Below, in pieces: positions 17,240-40,920 of a stretch of 64,000 nucleotides of DNA. The position numbers and the translations under genes were made by a program. Source of the DNA: Chrysoporthe austroafricana (lineage: Eukaryota; Ascomycota; Sordariomycetes; Diaporthales; Cryphonectriaceae); assembly GCA_001051155.2 (NCBI GenBank), contig JYIP02000006.1, forward strand, positions 248,001 to 312,000, written 5' to 3'. A model generated the notes under the pieces. The model was given only the letters and a program-made list of their open reading frames with translations, made no database searches and was not told where the DNA came from. Numbering within the stretch: position 1 is the stretch's first letter; every line of letters starts with the position of its first letter.

Positions 17240-20200
17240 GAATAATAATTTTTCTATTTAATCAAATATTCCTTATAATTTATCGGTTTCCAATATTTAA
17301 AGATTCGTTCTATTTCGTATTCTGATTTATTATTCTCTATTTGTATTATATTATTTATTTCGGCTATTTTGAATATAAGTTTAAGAAACAAAATGTAAAA
17401 GATTGGGTAGATTTTTATTTTGTAAGGTAATGCAAGTTCAAAATTAATATCTGAGATTTTTTTCAGAATTTTGAATAGTCCGAGTTTTTTATAATCTAGC
17501 GAATAAAAGGGTTTAGTTATTTTAATATATTTTTTTTATCGGATAAAGTAGATTTTATTTCTTTCTTGCAAAATTAATCTTTCAATTCTCTTAAAATTAA
17601 TATATCGGGTTATTCTTTTTTGCATAAATTTTAATTTTTCTTACAATTCTTTTTATATTTTCTTGATTTTCTTAATTTATTTTTCTGCTATTTCCGCATT
17701 TATTCTTAATAACTCGTTATAATAAGCTATCAGGTTATAGCCGTATAATATATAAAATAGTAATTTTTTTATTATATTTGTATTTGCGCTATTATATACG
17801 AATTATATTAAAAGCAATAAATTAATCCAATTATTTTATTTATAATTTATATAATGCTATAAATATTATTTGATAATTTGATTTATTCGTTCTATTTATT
17901 TATTTATTTATAAATAGAATATTATAAATATCTTTCATTATATTCCGAATAATTTTATAAATAAAGTCTAAAAATTTAATGCGAATTTCTTATTTCTGTC
18001 AGAAATAATTTCTTTAAGCATGCTATAATTAGTTATAACCGTTTTCAAGAATATATATGCGAGATTTTTTACTATGCTGCTTTCCTTATATAGAAAGAAA
18101 TAAGTATACTTACTTAATTTGCAAATTACTATTAGAATATTATTATATTGTATTTTAATTAAAGGTTTTCGTAAGAAAAATAGCTTAATAATAAAATTTT
18201 AATTAATAAATTGTTAAATTGCTTTTAGAATAGAAAATAATTAAAATAGTTTATAAAGTTTATAATATTCAATTTTATTTTTCTTATAGCTATTATATTC
18301 TTATAAGATATTTTCAATTCTTTTTCTAAAGCTTAATAAATTCCAATATTTCTTAATTCTTTCGTATATAGCTCTGATTCCTTAATAGCTATATGCGAGT
18401 ATATTATATATATTTTTAATATATTCGTTTTATTCTTTCGTTATTATATTTTCTAATTTCTTTTTATCGCTAGATATTCTAATAATCGTATTAAGTTTTC
18501 TAACTTTATTTACGAAATTGTTATTTTTGTCTTATCGAAAGATATTTTATAATTCTTTCGGCTTTATATCTTAATAATCTAATCGTTTGCTAAATATATT
18601 TGCTTTGCCGTTTTTCGATCTTTTGCAATAAACGATTTTTAAATCGAATTGTAAAAAGAATTCCGCCTATCTAACTTATTATTTATTTAAAACTTTCGTT
18701 ATTATAAATATTATTAGGTTTTTGTAATCGGAATGCATTATAATCTAGTATTTTATTCCGATTAAGTAATGCTGCTATTTTTCGAATGCTTTTACAATTG
18801 CTATTAATTCCTTATCCGAGATGCCATAATTGAATTCCAGATTGCTTAGTTTTTTCGAGAAATTGCTTACGATCCTGAAGCGTTTTTAGTTATTTCGTTA
18901 ACCGAGCTATCCTTTTAGTATATAATTTGATATATCGGTTTCGATTTTAAATAGTTTATTTGGGTTTGTTTTGCAAAATATAAGTTCTAATATTATTTGT
19001 TTTTTGATTTTATTGAATATTTCTTACGTTTTTTATATTTATTCGAATTTTTAATCTTTTTTCGTAAGATCCGTAAGAGAGCGTACAATTCGGCTATAAT
19101 TCTGAATGAATTGCTAGTAAAAATTAGCATAGCTAAAGAATGCTCTGATTTCCTTTATTTTTTCTGATATAAGCTATTCTTTTATTGCTTAAACTTTATC
19201 CTTTTATATATTAATTTTGCTTAATTTTATTATATAATTAAAATAATTGATTTTTTGTTAATAAAAATAATATTTGCTTAGTTTAATTAAGAATTTATTA
19301 TTTTATAAAATCTGAAATACTTGTTATATATACTATTTATAAAATTTGAAATTTTTTGAATAAATAAAGATATTATTAAAGTAAACGATAATAGTAATAT
19401 CCAAGTATTTGCGAAAGATATTATTAATTATTTCTTGGAAAAATGCAAGCGTATTAATTAGTTTAAAAAGTAAAATTACGTATTCGAAATATCCGTAACG
19501 AATCCTAAATACCGTTTTCCAGATATCGTCCTTTTTGATTCGAATATAGTAATATCCTTTTTTGAAATCGAATATAATAAATTAATTTATTCCGGTTAAT
19601 CGATCTCGTATTTCCCTTATTAGAAATAAAGAATAGCGGTTTTTTATTATAATATTATTAAGCTGCTTATAGTTTATATAAAGTCGGAATTTATTATTCT
19701 TTTTTAGTATAAATAGGATTGGATATCTTGCCGGTAATTGCGATTTCCGTATATAGCTTTTTTTCAGATTTTTGTCAATATATTCCCTAAATGCTTCGAA
19801 TTTCGCTTAATCGAATTTATAAATAGAGTAGTTCTTGGGTTTTATCCCTTCTTTCAGTAAGATTTTATAATTAAAAAAGCTATATTCTAGTAACCCGGTA
19901 TTGAATTTCCTTTGCTATAGTTTCTTGAGTTCGTAATATTCTTTTAATACGTTTTTGAATTCTAATATTAGTCTTTCCTTATTTTCTGAAATTTAGAAAA
20001 ATAAAAGGTATTATTGAGCGTATTTTCTTTTTGTTATTTCCTTTTTTTATTTATATATCCTAATTTCTAATAGCTTTAAATACTTATCGTTTATAAAGCC
20101 AAATCTCTTTTCGTAATCTTTTTATGCTTGCTATATTAGAAATTAAATCTCTTTATAATTCTATAATTCATATAATTTTATAACGCTCTATACCGGATTA

Positions 20201-23330: not shown

Positions 23331-25735
23331 CTAGAATACAGCCCTTTTAATTATAAGATTTTATTAAAAGAAAGGACAAAACTGCAAAATTGCTCTATTT
23401 ATAAGCTCGACCAAATAAAGCTCGAAATACTTAAGGAATATATTAACGAAAACTTAAAGAAAAGCTATATACGGAAATCGCATTTACTTGTAAAATACCC
23501 AATTTTATTCGTATTAAAAAAGAACGGCAAATTACGACTTTGTATAAACTACTGGCAGCTTAACGATATTACGATTAAAAATCGCTATTCTTTACTATTA
23601 ATAGGAAAAATACGAAATCGGTTGACAAAATAACAAATTCTTAATCGAACCAAGCAAATGCTATTTCCATTAATAAAAAATCGACTACTTTGATTATACG
23701 ATAGAACCAGGTAAGATTAGCATGCAAAAAAACAAAATTCAAGCAATAAAAGAATAGCTTATACCGAAAAAAATAAAGGAAATTAAAGCATTTTTCGGCT
23801 ATGCCAACTTCTACTAATAATTCATTCGAAAGTATAGCAAGATCGCACGCCTTCTTATAGATCTTATAAAAAAAGATCGAAAATTCGAATAAACTTAAGA
23901 AATATAAAAAGCATTTAGCAAAATCAAAAAACGAGTTATATCAGAATTCATACTCTGCAATATAGACCCAAATAGGCTATTTGAAATCGAAACCGATATA
24001 TTAGATTACGCATTCGGAAAATAATTCGGGCAGCGGGATAATTAAGGACGCTTCAGGATCGTAAGCAACTTTTCAAAAAAACTGAACGGCCCGGAATTTA
24101 ATTATAGCATTCCAGATAAAGAACTAATAGCAATTGTAAAAGCATTCAAAAAATAATAATATTATTTGATCAGAGCAAAATATTAAATTATAATGCATTT
24201 CAATTATAAGAATCTAATAATATTTATAATAATAAAAGTCCTGAATAGATAATAAGTTAGATAAGCAGAATTCCTTTTATAATTCGATTTAAAAATTGTT
24301 TATTATAAAAGATCTGAAAATGGCAGAATAAATGCATTTAGTAAACGGTTAAACTATTAAAATATAAAACTTAAAGAATTTCAAAATATCTTCCGATAAA
24401 ATAAAAATAGCAATTTCGTAAACGAAATTAAAGAACTTAATACGATTATTAGAATCTCTAATAATAAGAAAAGACTAGAGAATATAATAATAGAAAAATA
24501 AAACGAATATATTAAATGTATATATAATATATTAGTATATAGCTATTAGAATATTAGAGCTATATATAAAAGAATTAAAAAATATTAGAACCTTTTAAAG
24601 CTAAAAAGAAAGATCGAAATAATTTTACGAAATTGCAATAATTGCAAGAAAAATAAGATTGAATATTATAAGCCTTATAGATTGCTCTAACCGTTCTTTA
24701 TTCCGGAAGCAATTTGGTAATCTATTAGCTAAGATTTTATTATTAAGCTATTTTTCTTACGAAAACCTTTAATTAGAATGCAATATAATAGCATTTTAAT
24801 AATAATTTGCAAATTAAGCAAATATGCTTATTTCTTCCTTTATAAAGAAAGCAGTATAGCAGAAAATCTCGTATATATATTCTTTAGAACGGTTATAGCT
24901 AATTACGGCATGCTTAAAGAAATTATTTCCGATAGAAATAGAAAGTTTGTATTCAATTTCTGGATTTTATTTATAAAGCTATTCGGAATATAATAAAAGA
25001 TATTTATAGCATTCTACCCGCAAACGGATAGATAAACGGAACAAATTAATTAAATTATTAAGCAATACTTATAGCATTATATAAATTACGAATAAAATAA
25101 TTAAATTAACTTGCTATTATTAATATAATTCGCATATAATAGCGCAAATACAAATATAATAAAGAAATTACTATTTTATACATTCTATAATTATAACTTA
25201 ATAGCTTATTATAATAAGCTATTAAGAGCAAATGCAAAAGCAATAGAAAAACGAATCAAAAGAATTAAGAAAATTTAAGAAGAATTTCAGAAAGAATTGA
25301 AATTTATACAAAAAAGAATATCGAAATATACTAATTCTAAAAAAATTAAAAGATTAATCCTATAGGAAAAAAATAAAATCTATTTTATTTAACGAAAAAA
25401 GCATATTAGAATAACAAAACCCTTTTATTTACTAAATTATAAGAAACTTAGCTTATTCAAGATTTTAAAGAAAATCTTAGAAATTAATTTCGAATTTGCA
25501 TTACCCTATAAAATAAAAATCTATCCGGTATTCTATATTTCGCTTTTCGAATTTGCATTCAATATTGCTAAGATAAACAAATCTATACAAATTAAAACTA
25601 ATAAACCAGAATACGAAATCGAACAAATCTTCTATTACCGGAAACTAATTTAGTATAAAGAATATCTAATCAAATGGAAAGGATACTATTCAAATAAAAA
25701 CAGCTAGGAACTAATTAGCAATCTAAATAATGCGT
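23331..25735 (+). pseudogene. pol of element D, RT to chromodomain, with an internal RT deletion
   Basis: After the E insertion the frame resumes 'YSPFNYKILLKE', with the RT fingers region ending 'LLLIGKIRNRLTK' at 23633. Compared with element B the sequence then jumps to the connection region, so about 285 bp corresponding to B 35369-35653 are missing. That loss includes the FGL.NAP and YLDD blocks. RNase H ('NFSKKLNGPEFNYSIPDKE' near 24070-24125) and integrase follow; 'YGMLKEIISDRNRKFVFNFW' near 24905-24964 carries the central integrase Asp. A chromodomain stands near 25605-25715 ('KPEYEIEQIFYYRK', 'EYLIKWKGYYSN'). Many RIP-type stops. Confidence 0.8.
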
Positions 25736-26257: not shown

Positions 26258-26670
26258 TGTTATAAACGCTGCAATAAATCCTAAGACGTATTGTAAAGTC
26301 AAGGGGTTTATGCTAACAAGAGCGGTACTAAGTACGGGTCTTGAGCTTCAGGACAAGTTCACTTATATATCGCAATATTCATAAGCCAATACGGCTATCA
26401 ATAATAGGGTCCAATTGATACTTAGATTGACAACTGAAAAACTATCTATCTATCCGGCTAGTAATTCTCCCAGCTTTATATATTTAGTCCCTTAATCCCT
26501 GGCTCATAGTTGCTTACTGGAACTCGCTGCTACTTACCGAATCCCGGTAAGCTAGGCTAAGTCCTAATAACCCTAACCCTAGGTTATATAATCTTTGCGG
26601 AATATGCCTCCCTATTATCTAGCCTGGGTTCTGTTTAGGGTTTCTTTCGTTTGCATATTAGTTCATAATA
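26258..26670 (-). repeat. 3' LTR of element C (413 bp)
   Basis: Aligns without gaps to 40508-40920, differing mainly by transitions. It contains a double telomere-type unit CCCTAACCCT at 26571-26580 (TTAGGG on the element's coding strand). Confidence 0.93.
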
Positions 26671-26866
26671 TTATCCCCTTTCTATCGGGTATTATCCTTA
26701 ATACTATTCCGTAAATGCCCTTATATAGTAGTCTTTTCTTTACGCTTTCCTAATTAAGATATTCTATAGAGTTATCAAGTTTCGTAATCCCGTATTTACT
26801 TTTTCTTCCAAGAGCCTTGCCCGTCTTGAGCGATTTTTATTTATCGAGTCCCGGGAATACGAAATT

Positions 26867-30400: not shown

Positions 30401-31657
30401 AGCATATTCGTATTATAAAAGCTATATTTCTTTATAATTCTATAATCCATATTCTCTCGTATTATTCCGTACTTAACTAAACCTTTATTAATCGATAATT
30501 ACTTGTAATCTTAATCTGTCCTTAATTTTCGTTTGGAAATTCAAAGTATCCGTAACCTTTCCTTATATCGTAGCTTGCCTTCCTGCCTTAAGGGTACTTA
30601 TAAGCCTATTTGAGCGCATTTCGCTTATATTATCCTTAATAATTAGGTCTTTTCCTCTATTAATAATTACAACCTTTTCAGTAAGTACGGCTTATTCTTA
30701 TAAAATCTGGCTAGTAATCCAATCGATTCGAAAATTATATTTTTTAAGCTAAAGTATTCTTAAGATTAATTTATATTATACTGTATTTGTAATATTAAAA
30801 GTAATATTCGTTATAAGGCTTTGGATTAAAATAAGTAAATAATTAGTTTCTATATCAATTATTCCTAAGTTATACGTAACCGATTTTCTTTCTATAGTAT
30901 TAAGTCTGTAAGGATCCTTCTTCTGCATTTAAAGAATTTATTCCCTATTAACGATTTCTAGCGAAATAAAATTTCCTTATATGCTATTATCCAGTAATGC
31001 GCTATATCGTTATCCTTTAATATATATATCCAGAATAATATATTTTTTATTCTTTCTAGTAGTAATATATAAGGACTTCTTAATCCTGATCGGCTATTAT
31101 TCTATTACAGGCGATCCTTCCCTTTTGGGGTATTTCGGGCATTTTTCGCTATTTATTATACCAGCCTTTTTGCTTAGGCATAGCTTTATTGCCGATTCTT
31201 CTCGATTTTCTGCAGCTTATACCAGTTTTTGGCCTTGTCCTATATATATATAGAGCATGCTATTACGTAGCATTATCCTTACGTAATCTTTCTATCGACG
31301 CATGCTCGAAAGCAATTATCCGGTAGCCTAATATATGCATTATTATTTTCGATATGCAGGACTTTTCTATATTTTCTTTTCTTTTCCGTAACGGGATAGA
31401 TCAATTAATCCTATTCCTTAAATAGGAACCAATCGTATTTAATTTTCTCGCTAAAATATATCTGGCAATTATAATAAATATAGCTAATCCAAGCAAGTTT
31501 ATAATAACGAGAGTATAAATAACTAATCTTTCCGTCTTTTTAGAGTAGGCATTCGTTATTTTGAAATAATATGCTTTGGAAGAATTCTTTTATTATAAAC
31601 CTATAAATGATATGCTTAATTTCCGTATATTTGGATATCCATTTGCTGCAATCTTAG
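27500..31657 (-). pseudogene. pol of element C (protease to chromodomain)
   Basis: Minus strand. The protease block ('ALLDNSI-GNFIS'-like) lies near 31030-30975. RT follows with '[11 protein letters not shown]' and YFNN near 29720-29660, then RNase H near 29150-29090. Integrase runs about 28900-28050 and the chromodomain is at 27515-27640 ('EPEYEVERILKYYGPDYNP', 'EYLIKWKGYPANKNS'). An open stretch of 86 codons (27515-27775) covers the chromodomain and the 'HPVFHISFLKPV' linker. The upstream gag half lies on the far side of element B. Confidence 0.82.
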
Positions 31658-31662
31658 CAATT

Positions 31663-32078
31663 TGTTATGAACTAATATACAGAAAGACAAACCCCGATCT
31701 AGGGCCAATAGTTCTCTTATTTCTGTGTATGGGGCGTTTCTAATGCATTCGGTCCCAATCCCAATAGTCTCGAGTTGGCCCGAATGGCCCCGAGCTAAAG
31801 CAGCCATAAGCCCCGATGAGCAGCGATAAGCCAAAGATTAAAAAAAATATGGATATATAAGGCTGGAAGAATTATCGGCTAGATAATTAGATAGGACTTT
31901 CAGTTATCAATTTAAGTATTAATTGGACCCTACCATTGATAGCCATATTGGCTTATGAACCTTGCGATACTCAATGAATTCGTCCTGAAGCTCAAGATAG
32001 TACTTGGTATCGCTCTTGTTAGCATAAAACCCTTTATCCTTACAGCCCATCTAAGGATCTGCTGCAGCGTTCATAATA
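31663..32078 (+). repeat. 5' LTR of element B (416 bp), with an anomalous 89-bp segment
   Basis: Positions 31663-31708 and 31798-32078 match the 3' LTR with mostly transition differences. Positions 31709-31797 do not match it directly. The LTR ends ...GCAGCGTTCATAATA (from ...TTTATAACA). No TGG primer-binding site follows; the next bases are TTTTGACGATTCTTG. Confidence 0.93.
31709..31797. other. Segment that is the base-wise complement (not reverse complement) of the 3' LTR
   Basis: Reading 31709-31797 left to right and swapping A/T and G/C gives 38628-38716 left to right at 85 of 89 positions. The first ten bases are TAGTTCTCTT versus ATCAAGAGAA and the last ten CCCCGAGCTA versus GGGGCTCGAT. 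The four exceptions (offsets 17, 19, 26 and 57) are all transition-type. The bases on both sides are directly identical between the LTRs, so the boundaries are sharp. The 3' LTR version is the native one: element C carries the same GATTACGTAA..AGGGTTAGGG text on its own coding strand. This relation is not what an inversion makes. Confidence 0.95.
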
Positions 32079-32109
32079 TTTTGACGATTCTTGTTCAAGA
32101 TCGGTTTAG

Positions 32110-33170
32110 TATATACCCCTTAAGCAATATTCAGGATATAATAGCGCCCCAAACCCCGTCCTTATCCAATAATCAGGCTTTCCAGGAAGAGGTCCTAGTC
32201 GTCCTTACCAACGAACAATTCCAATAACAGAATATGATATTGTACTAGCAGCTTGAGGAAGTCAAGAACGAAATTATCCGCTTTAATGCCTTTTAGCAGG
32301 CTAGGGCTTTCAAGCTTGACAAGCCCGGCCCGTACAAAAGCATTCGGGGAGACTTCTAGGCCTTCTTGATATAACTCAAGGCCTATTTCAAGCATTATGA
32401 AACCCAGTTTAGGACTACTTATAACAAGATCGACTTCGCGGGAAGTCGCCTTGAAAGAATAGCATTCCAGTAGTAGGAGCCAACTTTTCGCGATTATTTG
32501 GATAATAGCGAGGAACTTCGCTCGGAAGATACTAAGCGCGTTTTCCAGCGCTATGCCAATTTCGAGTCAGCTCTTACCAAGACCTTTAGAGATCCGGATA
32601 AATGACAAATTGCGGTACGGCAGCTAGAGGTATTTCGATAAACCGGTTCGGCTGCGGACTATACGGCGAAATTCCGGCAGATCGTTGCTTACCTTGATTA
32701 TGAGGACGAACCCTTTATGGATGCCTATTACGCAGGACTCAAAGAGGAAGTTAAGGATGAACTCTATAAGGAAGACCGATTCGAGAAGCTTAGTAAGTTT
32801 ATTAATAAGGCAATCCGCATTAATAACCGACTATACGAACGATAGCAATAACGGCAGAAGAATTATAGTATTTCCTTGCGGTATTAGCCAAATACTGGGA
32901 AGCGCAAGTTCTAGTATAAGGGCAAGAATAGTACGGCCTATTCGGGCATTATATATACTAAGCCTATAGAACTAAATACCTTCGTATACGAATAATGCAA
33001 AGGGGTTACTTATTATAATTGCAGCAAGAAAGGTTATATCGCTTGCAATTATTAATAGAAATAAAAGAAGCGAGAATGGAAGCCAGTCCTAGAGAGATAG
33101 CTTAGCGTCGCTTGGCGATAGGAACCCAATCAGCTGGGCAAAAATATCCAATCTAAATAAGCAGCGGACC
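32110..33170 (+). pseudogene. gag of element B
   Basis: Plus-strand text reads 'FQRYANFESALTKTFRDPDK' near 32544-32605, 'DYTAKFRQIVAYLDYEDE' near 32658-32711, 'EVKDELYKEDRFEKLSKF' near 32749-32803 and a zinc knuckle near 33000-33050 ('YYNCSKKGYIACNY', from CxxCxxxGHxxxxC). About a dozen TAG/TAA and one TGA sit where Gln, Trp or Arg is expected. The N-terminal start cannot be fixed. Confidence 0.82.
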
Positions 33171-33989
33171 TTGATTACGGCAGTATTAGCTGGACAGCCT
33201 GCTACCAGGATTATTGCATATTGCATTTCTCGGAAAAGGAAAGCTCAGAATAGTTCTTACGCAAGCCCTAAGAATAGCAGCAATTTGCTATGGGCAAGAA
33301 AGGCCCATTTTACGATATTATTATCCGGGATAGCAATTCCGATTGCTCTAGTAAAAGACTTTCGCAAAGTAAGGAAGATTTGGGAAAATACTTTTTGAAT
33401 TACTATCTGGAACGATAATGGAATAATATGGTAGAAAAGGAAATTGGCATTATAAGACTGGAATTACCGATACTTAGCATTATTATCGAAGAATCGGCAT
33501 ATCCCGACAGATAACCAGATAACTTACTAATTCCAGTTCCTGACGAAGAATTATCAGAAGAAATAGCCCGCTATCAACAAAAGAATTGCTAAGATTGTAA
33601 TAAATGGATAACCAAATATACGGAAATGGAATATATCATTTATAGGCTTACGATAAAGGAATTCTTCTAAGGCATACTATTCCAGAATAGTAGTTGCTTA
33701 CCCTAGGAAAACGGAAGGATCAGTTACTTATACTTTCGCTATTATGAACTTGCCTGGATTAGTTATATTTACTATAATTGTTAGATATACTTTAGCGAGA
33801 AAGTTAAATACGATTGGTTTCCGCTTAGGGAATGGGATTAATTGATCTATCCCGTTACGGAAGAAAGAGGAAAGCATAGGAAAGTCTTGCATATCGAAGA
33901 TAATAATGCATATATAGGACTACTCGACAACTGCTTACGAGCATGCATTAATGGAAAAACCATATAGGGATAATGCTATATAACCGCAT

Positions 33990-34560
33990 GCTCTATATAT
34001 GCATAGGACAAAGCCAAAGAATAGCATAAGCTGCAGAAAATCGAGAAGAATTGGTAGCGAAGCTATGCCCAAGCAAAAAGGCTAGCATAGCAAGTAGCGA
34101 GGAGTGCCCAGGATACCTTAAAAGGGAAGGATCGCCTGTAATGGAATAATAGCCGATTAGGATTACGAGGTCCTTATATGCCATTACTAAAAGAAACGAG
34201 GAGCACATTATTCTAGACGCGTATATTAAAGGACGACGATATAGCGTACTACTGGATAGCGGCATATAAGGAAATTTCATCTCGCCCGAAATCGTTAATA
34301 GGGAACGAATTCCCTGGACGCAAAAGAAAGACTCTTACAAGCTTAATACTATAGAAAGAAAGTCGGTTACGTATAACCTAAGTATAATCGATATAGAAAC
34401 TGATTATTTACCTATCTCGATCCAAAGCCTTACGATAAACGTTACTTTTGATATTACAGATATAGTATAATATAAGTTAATCTTGGGAATACTTTGGCTT
34501 AAGGAGCATAACCTTCGAATTGATTGGACTACTGGCCAGATCTTATAAGAACAAGCCGTA
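33990..34560 (+). pseudogene. pol of element B, protease region
   Basis: 'LDAYIKGRRYSVLLDSGI' at about 34213-34266 followed by 'GNFISPEIVNRERIPW' is the retroviral-type aspartic protease block. Its D-S-G triad is intact, followed by one TAA. Downstream, 'ILGILWLKEHNLRIDWTTG' near 34475-34531 is the usual C-terminal protease/linker segment. Confidence 0.8.
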
Positions 34561-35059
34561 CTTATTGAGAAGGTCGCGATTACTAGTAGAAGAAAAGACC
34601 TAGTTACTGAAAATAGCATAAGTAAAATGCGCTCAAATAGGCTTACGAATACCCCTAGAGCAGAAAAGCAAGCCATAATACAGGGAAGGGTTACGATTAC
34701 CTTGAACTTCCAGACGAAAGTTAGGGACGGACCAGGATTACAAACGACTATCGACTAACAGAAATTCGGTCAAGTACGGAATAGCGCAAGAAAATATGGA
34801 TTATAGAACTATAAAGAAATATAGCTCTTACAGTATGAATACGCTAGAAGACAATTCGGCTCGGCACCCGACAGATACCTGAGATTACTAGAAACAGAAA
34901 AGCTCAAAAGATAAGAAGCTAGCGAGGCAAGATACGTATAGCGATATTTTATATTCTTACAGATCGCAGAAGACGAAAAAGAATTACTGCCAGACCTTAA
35001 AAACGTATTACGGGAGTATTACGAATTCAAAAAACTATAGTAAGGAAAATTCGATAACG

Positions 35060-37735
35060 GCTTACCCGAATATGGCCCTTTTGATTATAAGATCCTACTG
35101 AAAGAAGGGACAAAGCTATAGAATTACCTTATTTACAAGCTCGATCAAGCAAAATTCAAAGCACTTAGGGAATATATCGATGAAAACCTTAAGAGAGGCT
35201 ATATACAGAAATCACAATCACTCGCGGGATATTTAATCCTGTTCGTTTTAAAGAAAAACGGCAAATTACGACTTTGCATAGACTATTGGCAACTTAACGA
35301 TATTACAATCAAGAATCGCTATCCCTTGCCGTTAATAGGAGAAATGCGAAATTGTTTGATAAGAGCAAAATGGTTTACTATTCTGGACTTTAAAGAAGGA
35401 TATTATTATATTCGGATTAAGGAAGATGATATTTGGAAAATAGCATTCAGGACCCGTTACGGACATTTCGAATATGTAATCTTACCCTTTGGATTAATTA
35501 ATGCGCCCGCGTCCTTCCAAGAAATGATCAATAACGTCTTTCGCGAATACCTGGATACTATTATTATCGTCTACCTTGACGATATCCTTATCTATTCCAA
35601 AGACTTTGCATTATACAAATAGCATATACGATAAGTATTCCGAACGTTATAAGATAATAAATTCCTTGTAGAACTAAGCAAATGCTAGTTTTACTAACAG
35701 GAAATTAATTACCTGGGCTATACTATCAAATTAGGATAGATTAGCATGCAGAAAGATAAGGTCCAAGCAATAAAAGAATAGCCTATATTAGAAAAGACTA
35801 AGGAAGTTAGAGCATTTCTCGGCTATGCTAACTTCTATTGGCAATTCATTCGAAACTATAGCAAGATCGTACGATTATTTACGAATCTTATAAAGAAGGA
35901 CTGCAAATTTGAATAGACTCAAAAAGCTCGAAAAGCATTTGACGAAATTAAGGAACGAGTTATATCAGAACTTATACTCTGCGAAACGGACCCAGATAAA
36001 CTATTCGAAATCGAAACCGACATATCAGATTACGTACTTAGCGGATAACTAGGCTAACGAGACGACTAGGGATATCTCAAGATAATAAGCAACTTCTCAA
36101 AAAAATTGAACGGCCCGGAACTTAATTATGGCATTCCAGATAAAGAATTAATGGCAATCGTCAAAGCATTCGAAAAATGGCAATACTACCTAATCGGAAC
36201 TAAATACCAGATAATAGTACATTCAGACTATAAAAACCTAATAACGTTCATAATAACAAAAGTCTTGAACAAACGACAAGTCAGATAGGCAGAATTCCTC
36301 TCGCAATTCGACCTAAAAATCATATATTGCAAAGGATCAGAGAATGGCAAAGCAAATGCCCTTAGCAAATAAGCAGATTACCAGGATACGGAACCCAAAG
36401 AATTATAGAATATTTTCAAGCAAGACAAAAATGGCAACCTTGTAAGCGAAGCAAAAGAACTCAATACGATTATCAGAATCGAGAATCAAGGAAGAAAACC
36501 TGAAAATATAATTCCCGAAAAACAAAACGAATATATCAAAACTATATATAGCGCACTAGCATATAGTTATCAAGGAATCAGAGCTACTTACGAAAGAATT
36601 AAGAGATACTGGAACTTACTAGGGCTTAAACGAAAAATCGAAAGAATTTTACGAGAGTGCGACAGCTATAGGAAGAACAAAATTGAATATTACAAGCCCT
36701 ATAGATTGCTCTAACTATTCCCGGTTCCGGAAATAGTTTGGCAATCTATCAGCTAGGATTTCATTACCAAGCTACCTCTCTTACGAGAACCTTTAACTAG
36801 AGTACAGTACGACAGTATTCTAGTAATAGTTTGCAGACTAAGCAAGTACGCTTATTTCCTACTATATAAGGAAAGCAGTATAGCAAAGGAACTCGCATAT
36901 ACGTTCCTCAGAACGGTTATAGCCAATTACGGCATGCCCAAAGAAATCATTTCCGATAGAGATAGAAAGTTCGCATTAAATTTCTGGACCTTACTTACGA
37001 AGCTATTCGGAATATAATAGAGAATATTTATAGCATTCTATCTATAAACAGATAAACAAACGGAAAGAACTAACCAGATTATCAAGCAATATTTACGATA
37101 TTACATAAATTACGAACAGGATAACTGAATCGACTTCCTACCCCTAGCGCAATTTGCATATAATAGCGCAAATACAAGTACGATAAAGAAATTGCTATTC
37201 TACGTACTTTATAGCTATAACCCGATAGCCTACTACGACAAGATACCAGGAGCAAATGCAGAAGCTACAGAAAAACGAATTAGAAAAATCAAGAAAATTC
37301 AGAAAGAATTCCAGAAAGAACTGAAGTTCGTACAAGAAAGAATGACGAAATACGCTAACTCTAAAAAGATCGAAAGACCAATCCTACAAGAAAGGGACAA
37401 AGTCTACTTTGTTCGACAGAAAGAATATATTAAAATAACAAGACCCTTTCACTTACTGGATTACAAGAAATTGGGACCATTCAAAATCCTAAGGAAAATC
37501 TCAAATGTCAATTTCGAACTCGCGCTATCCCATAGAATAAGAATCCATCCGGTATTCCATATCTCGCTCCTCGAACTAGTACCAAGAATAACCAAAACAG
37601 ATAGAAGCATTCAAGTCGAGAATAACGAGCCAGAATACGAAATCGAACGAATCTTTAGATACCGCAAACCAGATTACGATCCCGAATACCTTATCAAATA
37701 GAAAGACTACCCGGCAAATGAAAATTCGTAAGAAC
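35060..37735 (+). pseudogene. pol of element B: RT, RNase H, integrase and chromodomain
   Basis: RT: '[20 protein letters not shown]' at about 35269-35328, 'PFGLINAPASFQEMIN' at about 35488-35535, and the catalytic YLDD at 35572-35583, all intact. RNase H: 'LNYGIPDKELMAIVKAFEKW' near 36122-36180. Integrase: 'YGMPKEIISDRDRKFALNFW' near 36925-36984 with its Asp. 'HPVFHISLLELV' (about 37549) is the GPY-like tail. Chromodomain: 'EPEYEIERIFRYRKPDYDP' then 'EYLIK' at 37630-37700, followed by a TAG where the conserved Trp should be. This places the elements among the chromoviruses, whose integrase chromodomain can target histone-marked chromatin. Scattered RIP stops make it non-functional. Confidence 0.88.
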
Positions 37736-37837
37736 CCAAATCTAACCTACAAAATGCATCTCGAGCATTAGCAGATTACTTGGATAAACAATAACGGAAG
37801 GGAATAAGCATATAAAGATTCTACTTACCCGAATTAT

Positions 37838-38385
37838 TTAGGAAAACTGCCCGGATCCAGAACAAGAACTAGCCTTACCCAAAAAACCAAACCAGTCCAC
37901 TACAGAATTACCTATACTTACGGAATTCCAGTCAAAACTACTAAAAGAAGGATCCGCAACCGCAACTGCAAACTCTTCGGAAATTACTGCCTGTATTTCG
38001 ATAGCCATACGACTACGCTCTTCTTCTTCCAGATTTTGATTTACTAACTTTATCCCTTTTTCCTGGAAGAAGCGGCGCTATTTCTTTAGCCGTGCAAGAC
38101 GAGCCAAGGATTCGGTTATGCGGGATTGAAGCTCGAGAAGCCGCCCTTCCTTCTTAACTTCACAACTATCAATCCGGGACAATTTATTGGTAACTCGTAA
38201 TACTATAACAGGATTAGGAAGAAGAATAAGAAGAGCAAGAAGAAGGAAAAGAGGAGCTTACAAGACAATAACGGAACCCGTCCAGTATCGCAAGAACGCT
38301 CCCGTTTCGTACAATTAGAACAACTCTTAACCCCATTCACCATACGATACGACAAGCCCTCTTCAAGACAAAGCGAACAAGGCAT
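37838..38385 (-). pseudogene. Antisense accessory ORF of element B: CxxC finger plus coiled coil
   Basis: On the strand opposite to pol, between the chromodomain and the 3' LTR. The N-terminus reads 'MPCSLCLEEGLSYRMVNGVK' and 'SCSNCTKRERSCDTGR', a double CxxC arrangement with a further Cys six residues on. After a frame change near 38270 the other frame reads 'RLLELQSRITESLARLARLK' and 'FFQEKGIKLVNQNLEEEERS', a charged amphipathic helix. The tail is 'SFSSFDWNSVSIGNSVVDWF' then 'GLGKASS'-like text, ending in TAA at 37838. Element C has the same gene. I recall similar 'hypothetical proteins' from many Pezizomycotina genomes, but cannot verify that here. Function unknown. Confidence 0.72.
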
Positions 38386-38581
38386 GATTTCGTACCTTCG
38401 AGACTCGATAAACGAAAATCGCTCAAGGCGGGCAAGACTCTTGGAAGAAAAAGTAGACGAGGAACCACAAGACTTGCCGACTCTGTAAGATATCTCAATA
38501 AGGAAAATGCGATAAGAAACCTGCCGAATAAGGATACTTACAAAGCATTATTAGGGACAATAACCGATAGAAGAAGAATGA

Positions 38582-38997
38582 TATTATGAACCAATATACA
38601 GAAAGACAAACCCTAACCTAGGGCCAAATCAAGAGAATAAAGATATATACCCTGCAAAGATTACGTAAGCCAGGGTTAGGGTTATTAGAGCTCAACCGGG
38701 CTTACCGGGGCTCGATAAGCAGCTATAAGCCCCGATAAGCAGCGATAAGCCAAGGACTAAAAAAAATATGGATATATAAGGCTGGAAGAACTATCGGCTA
38801 GATAATTAGATAGGACTTTCAGTCGTCAATCTAAGTATCAATTGGACCCTATTATTGATAGCTATATTGGCTTATGAACTTTGCGATACTCAGTGAATTC
38901 GTTCTGAAGCTCAAGACAGTATTTGGCATCGCTCTTGTTAGCATAAAACCCCTTGTCCTTACAGCCTATCTAAGGATCTGCTGCAGCGTTTATAACA
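38582..38997 (+). repeat. 3' LTR of element B (416 bp)
   Basis: Starts TATTATGAACC (from TGTTATGAACC) and ends GCAGCGTTTATAACA. It contains CAGGGTTAGGGTTATT at 38671-38686 and a TATATAAGG box near 38773. This is the reference for the anomalous 5' LTR segment. Confidence 0.95.
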
Positions 38998-39002
38998 CAA
39001 TT

Positions 39003-40507
39003 CTTTTGCTAATAATAAGCTATTTCTTCTGATAATTCTTTATCGGGAACTGGAATTAATAAGTTATCCGGCTACTTATCGGGATATACTAATTTTTCGA
39101 CAATATTGCTAGGTATTAGTAATCCTGATTGTATAATGCCGATTTCTTTTTCTATTATGCTATTTTATTATCGTTCTAGATAATAATTTAAGGGGTATTT
39201 CCCTAAATCTTCTTCGCTTTGCAAAAGCTTTTCGCTAGAATAATCGGAATTGCTATCCTGGATAATAATATCGTAAAATAAGCTTTTCTTGCTTATAACG
39301 AGTTATTATTTTCCTTAAAGCTTGCATAGAAACTATCCTAAACTTTCTTTTTCTGAGAAATGCAATATGCAATAATTGTAATAGCAGGCTATTTAGCTAA
39401 AATTGCTATAATCAGAATTTGCTATTTGCTTTAGTAAAATATTTTTATTTAGCTAATTGGGTTCCTGTTACTAAGCGATATTAAGCTATTTCTCTAGGAC
39501 TAGCTTTTATTCTCGCTTTTTTCGTTCTTATCGACAATTGCGGGCAATATAATTTTTCTTACCGCAATTATAACAAATAATCCCTTTTCATTATTTATAT
39601 ATAAAAGTATTTAGTTCTATAGGCTTAGCATATATAATACCCGAATAGGCTATATTATTCTTGCTTTTATATTAGAACTTACGCTTTTTAATATTTAGCT
39701 AATATCGCAAAATAATACCGTAATTCTTCTATTATTATTATCGTTATTCATATAATCTATTATCAATTCGGATTGCTTTATTAATAAATTCGCTAAGTTT
39801 TTCAAGTTAGTCTTCCTTATAGAATTCATTTTTAACTTCTTCTTTAAATCTTGCATAATAAGTATTTATAAAAAGTTCGTTCTCGTAATCTAAATAAGCT
39901 ATAATTTGCCGGAACCTGGCCGTATAATCCGAAACCGAACCGGTTTATCGAAATGCTTCTAATTACCGTATTGCAATACGTTATTTATCCGGATTTCCAA
40001 AGGTTTTGACGAAAGCTGATTCGAAATTAGCATAGCGTTAGAAGATATATTTGGTATCTTCCGAGCGAAGTTTTTCACTATTATCCAAATAATTGCAGAA
40101 AGTTAGCTTCTATTATTGGAAAGCCGTTCTTTTAAAGCAATTTCTTGCGAAATCGATTTTATCGTAAGTAGTCCTGAACTAGGGTCTGTAATGCTTGAAA
40201 TAAGCCTTAAGTTATATCAAGAAAGCCTGAAAGTCTTTTCGAATGCTTTTGTAAAGGCCGGGTTTGTCGAACTTGAAAGTCTTTGCCTGTTAGAAAGCAT
40301 TGAGGCGGATAATCTCATTTTTGATTTCTTCAAATTATTAGTATAGAGCCATATTCTGTTACTGGAATTGTTCGTTAGTAAGGACGGTTAGTACCTCTTC
40401 CTGAAAGGCCTGGTTACTGGATAAAAACGGGATCTGGGGCGCTATCGTATCCTGGGTATTGCTTAAGGGGTATATACTAGACCGATTTCGAACAAGAATC
40501 GTCAAAA
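39003..40507 (-). pseudogene. gag of element C (and start of pol), cut by insertion of B
   Basis: On the minus strand, starting after the 5' LTR with the same TTTTGACGATTCTTGTTC leader as element B. Gag text matching B and D follows (for example the 'KTFGNPDK' and 'LYKMNSI' regions in shifted frames). A damaged zinc knuckle lies near 39530-39590. RIP stops and some frameshifts are present. Interrupted at 39002 by element B. Confidence 0.75.
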
Positions 40508-40920
40508 TGTTATAAACGCTATAATAGATCCTAAGATATATTGTAAAATTAAAGGGTTTATGCTAATAAGAGCGGTACCAAGTACGGGTCTTGAGCTTTA
40601 AGACAGGTTTACTTATATATTGCAATGTTCATAAGCCAATATGGTTATTAATGGTAGGGTCCAATTGATACTTAGATTGACGACTGAAGAACTATTTATC
40701 TATCCGGCTGGTAATTCTCCTAGCCTTATATATCTAGTCCTTTAGTCCCTGGCTTATAGTTGCTTACTGGAATTTGCTATTGCTTACTGAATCCCGGTAA
40801 GCTAGGCTAAGCCCTAATAACCCTAACCCTAGGTTACGTAATCTTTGCGGGGTATGCTTCCCTATTGTCTGGCCTGGGTTCTGTTTGGGGTTTCCTTCGT
40901 TTGCACGTTGGTTTATAACA
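40508..40920 (-). repeat. 5' LTR of element C (413 bp)
   Basis: In element orientation it begins TGTTATAAACCAACGTGCAA and ends ...GCGTTTATAACA. Telomere-type CCCTAACCCT stands at 40821-40830. It pairs with 26258-26670. Confidence 0.93.

Follow-up and report, generated by a model that had tools for sequence, protein, structure and literature searches.

A plain-complement tract in the LTR of a Ty3-type retrotransposon is almost certainly an artefact of assembly

The 5' LTR of element B contains an 89-letter tract that reads as the plain complement, in the same direction, of the corresponding text in its partner LTR. Judging from the sequences compared, this tract is almost certainly an assembly artefact, probably from a patching fault at contig joins. 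Similar tracts were identified elsewhere in the genome, and collectively they most probably reflect a fault that recurs in the data of this assembly rather than a novel rearrangement. The 5' LTR of element B most likely carries the normal text of its family in the living cell. The difficulty with any biological explanation is one of strand polarity: a polymerase, or the cutting and rejoining of a duplex, yields either a given text or its reverse complement and never its complement in the same direction.

The window, a stretch of 64,000 letters, corresponds to C19:248001-312000 of the genome assembly (48.15 Mb, 22 contigs), where the 416 letters of the element B 5' LTR are found with 100% identity. 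The features of element B are as follows.

31658..31662, plus strand: target-site duplication CAATT, left copy
31663..32078, plus strand: 5' LTR, 416 bp, TG...TA, with TA where the 3' LTR has CA
31709..31797, plus strand: complemented tract, the plain complement of LTR U3 text
37192..37701, plus strand: integrase end, Tf2-1-like SH3 domain, Ty3-type (PF24626)
38582..38997, plus strand: 3' LTR, 416 bp, normal family text
38628..38716, plus strand: U3 text in its normal form, the counterpart of 31709-31797
38998..39002, plus strand: target-site duplication CAATT, right copy

Element B begins with TG and ends with CA, has paired LTRs of 416 bp each and is flanked by a CAATT/CAATT duplication, which is the outline of a Ty3-type LTR retrotransposon. 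The first-pass annotation had assigned 416 bp to both LTRs together with a perfect target-site duplication, and this was confirmed; when the LTR ends and the duplication were considered, the borders moved by two letters to 31663-32078 and 38582-38997 with the length unchanged. The open frames listed within 30500-40000 include only one that reaches 100 aa, and its product (37192-37701) is matched by PF24626, the Tf2-1-type integrase C-terminal SH3 domain, at 4.5e-12. Since a Tf2-1-like integrase SH3 domain lies near the 3' end, element B is classed as a Ty3-type retrotransposon. A scan of genome contigs with the integrase piece identified no relative. LTRs of a second family, represented by an element on contig C1 that is described below, are found on the minus strand at 26260-26671 and 40510-40918. 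As these lie on both sides, element B sits among pieces of a related family.

A letter-by-letter comparison of 31709-31797 with 38628-38716 reproduced the relationship that had been claimed from the window alone, with a plain complement at 85 of the 89 positions and direct identity at none (0/89). The reverse of the partner agrees at 27/89 and its reverse complement at 24/89, so the tract is not the product of a DNA inversion, which would have left the reverse complement of the partner text. At the four exceptions (31725, 31727, 31734 and 31767), G stands against T. When the tract is read as a complement, these become C against T and are therefore transitions, in agreement with the earlier description. 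On either side of the tract, the two LTRs match directly, with 91% identity on the left (31665-31708) and 92% on the right (31798-32076), the differences being mostly transitions. As a control for chance, 150 random 89-mers from the window were scored, and the best plain-complement score was 50/89. The next-best ungapped place for the tract within the window scored 41/89. Closer to the tract than the element's own 3' LTR (85/89) is the LTR (L039, C1:6133783-6134125) within which contig C1 stops; it belongs to the family of element B and is an 89/89 complement of the tract. As a measure of the tract's age, the dinucleotide context of RIP was mixed, with one site per reading in the tract and 2 against 5 in the direct flanks; the other loci were equally mixed.

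The genome was searched with the 5' LTR of element B, and the best 40 of 503 candidate places were scored. Beyond its own locus and C1:5571367, all 38 scored loci match the right part of the LTR only from query position 138, 139 or 149, each of which falls outside of the tract (LTR positions 49-137). When the 3' LTR was used as the query, 39 loci were compared and 37 of them had normal text throughout the tract region; the exceptions were L031, which contains a second tract, and L038, which begins at LTR position 87. The tract text had one further match in the genome, C1:5571367-5571435, with 87% identity over 69 bp. The first-pass annotation had reasoned that an independent source of this text in direct orientation would make the tract an LTR variant. 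While such a source is formally present at C1, it is not an LTR variant, but another complemented tract in an element whose own 3' LTR is normal.

This second tract (C1:5571357-5571443, 87 letters) lies within the 5' LTR of an element at C1:5571302-5578623, which has the target-site duplication TATAA/TATAG and belongs to a family approximately 80% alike to that of element B. The tract occupies positions 56-142 of the LTR and is the plain complement of the element's own 3' LTR, which, with other copies of that family, carries the normal text. Two normal copies are complemented at 86/87 letters. Inside the tract, the 3' LTRs of the B and C1 elements differ at 17 sites. At 12 of these, each tract agrees with its own element; at 4, one tract takes the letter of the other family; and neither pattern applies at 1. 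The B and C1 tracts thus arose separately. Furthermore, the U3 of the 5' LTR is not carried by retrotransposon RNA, so two tracts in two 5' LTRs would require two events. Private letters, also considered as a measure of age, were found at 0/89 and 0/87 positions of the B and C1 tracts, and none were present in 40 of 59 control copies either, so they do not date the tracts.

A search of the genome with the plain complements of the 3' LTRs of both elements recovered the B and C1 tracts and revealed further ones at C2:612227-612336 (110 letters, 94%), at C2:612504-612530 (27/27) in the same LTR, at C19:199918-200000 and at C12:3434270-3434333. The C2 LTR is a 3' LTR as judged by its place in the element. 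The phenomenon thus appears at several places in the assembly, with a total of six tracts at five loci, all within LTR text, which was also most of the text searched. The tracts of B, C1 and C2 each stand in the position of the text that they complement, enclosed by directly matching LTR flanks; direct LTR text resumes at the next letter in the case of the C19 tract, and 21-23 directly matching letters follow in the case of the C12 tract. The tracts beyond B and C1 occupy various positions in the LTR. No tract was found when the complements of 900 and 600 internal element letters were searched in the genome. The 900-letter piece has at least 40 genome copies, since the best 40 of 480 candidates all match over at least 897 letters. 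As far as searched, then, the tracts appear to be restricted to LTRs, as judged from 35 LTRs (some of which were sought as broken) and two internal pieces with the best candidates scored.

Four of the weaker plain-complement matches among the fetched sequences were inspected (L027:1832-1933 with window 19258-19357, L047:1408-1479 with window 30730-30801, L060 with L066, and L027 with window 24363-24427). All were A+T-rich without directly matching flanks and were rejected.

A second type of irregularity is found in the assembly. In 80 fetched sequences (293,739 letters, some overlapping), there are seven distinct single Ns, each accompanied by a repeated contig end of 85-121 letters. These look like overlapping contigs that were left unmerged. 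Six of the Ns directly abut the repeated ends (85/85, 101/102, 120/121, 102/103, 97/98 and 105/106; 99-100% identical). Five of the seven overlaps are inside LTRs, where they occupy the U3 stretch that holds the B and C1 tracts but in other copies, with the overlap repeated on either side of the N.

L004:1844, single N in LTR
L006:1450, single N in LTR
L008:1900, single N in LTR
L020:1848, single N in LTR
L050:1858, single N in LTR

These five overlaps resemble tandem duplications of U3. Their left parts end at LTR positions 137-174 and their right parts begin at 17-88, in comparison to 49-137 for tract B and 56-142 for the C1 tract. The L008 join ends at position 137, as does tract B, and the L050 join begins at position 56, as does the C1 tract. 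The sixth abutting N (L048:278, contig C20), whose repeated end matches at 97/98, lies approximately 1.2 kb from the LTR. At C12:3434000, an inverted LTR end is repeated (99/99), but the second copy is separated from the N by 103 other letters and stops 57 letters ahead of the C12 tract (L079/L078, C12:3433750-3434600). Join scars are present in the LTR stretch of the B and C1 tracts, in other copies, and in the vicinity of the C12 tract. No N was seen in the 651 and 601 letters fetched around the C2 and C19 tracts, respectively, and none of the six tracts contains an N. The C19 tract ends exactly at contig position 200000 (L077:301), and one single N is exactly at C12:3434000. These round positions may be due to chance or may reflect chunked processing; no other tract or N falls on a round number.

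From the tracts and the single Ns, a mechanism may be proposed. The assembler would have broken inside high-copy LTRs, where neighbouring contigs overlapped by approximately 85-121 letters. Some of the joins would have kept both copies of the overlap, separated by a single N. At other joins, a short minus-strand patch or a small contig would have been written reversed and not complemented, or complemented and not reversed. A patch that is reversed without complementing produces an exact plain complement in place with no change in length, and we infer that the tracts are minus-strand patches of this kind. The tracts in the 5' LTRs of B and C1 agree with the join overlaps in both place and size. 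Against the patch reading stand the 27 letters of the second C2 tract, fewer than in any of the overlap joins, the lack of an N within the tracts and in the text fetched around those of C2 and C19, and the placement of two of the seven Ns, L048:278 being remote from the LTR and C12:3434000 not adjoining its repeat. A hairpin was considered as the cause of the assembly break and rejected; the folding z-scores were -1.4 and -1.3, and one control piece had a z-score of -1.9. The handling error that had been suggested from the window alone is supported by the similar tracts at four other loci and by the unmerged single-N overlaps in the same LTR stretch.

The LTRs are a trouble spot, in contrast to the 900-letter internal piece, whose 40 scored copies (of 480 candidates) are matched almost in full. 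Among family-A LTRs, 10 of 35 are odd, a fraction affected by selection in that three of them, the two shortened ones and the one on C2, turned up during a search for broken LTRs. The ten comprise two with tracts, four with N joins, two that are short by approximately 132 and 148 bp, one cut at a contig end, and one that begins at position 87. The 5' LTRs at C22:2174601 (L074) and C3:780747 (L075) were considered as further tracts and rejected, as LTR text is missing at approximately 116-247 and 119-266, respectively. The missing text may represent true deletions or further mis-joins.

The alternative with the most biological interest is a real but undescribed process, confined to LTRs, that repeatedly swaps 27-110 bp of duplex for its same-direction complement in one eukaryotic genome. 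The distribution of the six tracts over five loci, all in LTRs with sharp ends and with length kept where both flanks are visible, would be consistent with such a process, as would the lack of tracts from the two internal pieces. It is nevertheless highly improbable, given that strands would have to be joined or copied with parallel polarity, and we know of no enzyme that does so. Most of the join scars also fall in the stretch occupied by the B and C1 tracts, and both tracts are complements (89/89 and 86/87) of normal copies that exist in the assembly. A deliberate edit, in which the tract was planted in the window, had been offered from the outset beside the handling error. It was compatible with the text of the window taken by itself, but this explanation has become very unlikely: the assembly has the same 416 letters, and tracts of other lengths occur outside of the window, on C1, C2 and C12 and at another place on C19, and also in a different LTR family. 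Least probable of all, to the point of being negligible, is a variant family text that entered the 5' LTR by gene conversion with the complement relationship as a coincidence, for the one direct match in its favor (at C1) complements its own 3' LTR, both tracts follow the letters of their own element at 12 of the 17 differing sites, the score of 85/89 compares with a chance maximum of 50/89, and the genome matches scored include no lineage with the tract text in both LTRs.

A fault of this kind would have consequences for how the assembly may be used. Several short stretches of its LTRs are apparently false, and these would mislead LTR-based dating as well as promoter analysis and the building of repeat libraries. 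As biology, a same-direction complement would break strand polarity, and belief in it needs reads. Other genomes can be checked for such faults in a simple way, by searching their repeats with the plain complement of each.

In terms of known processes, inversion gives the reverse complement, RIP gives only transitions, conversion copies existing text, and template switching gives no plain complement either. Element B resembles elements of RIP-prone genomes in that the LTR flanks of its tract differ from the partner mostly by transitions; it departs from LTR inversion in Ty3-type retrotransposons, as the reverse complement accounts for only 24 of the 89 letters. Where contig overlaps go unmerged or scaffold joins create false duplications, the overlap appears twice and in its correct orientation. 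The single-N scars share with these false duplications the short, near-identical ends that recur on either side of one N, for the most part within high-copy repeats. The tracts differ in that overlap-sized text has been complemented in place and the N is gone. Among the literature matches listed, no description of complemented tracts in assemblies was found. GapFiller closes gaps by k-mer overlap, and the word 'reverse' is absent from the text of its paper (PMC3446322). The tracts also resemble the product of a scripting error in which a sequence is reversed without being complemented, or complemented without being reversed, as the outcome is likewise a same-direction complement of the plus strand with its length kept.
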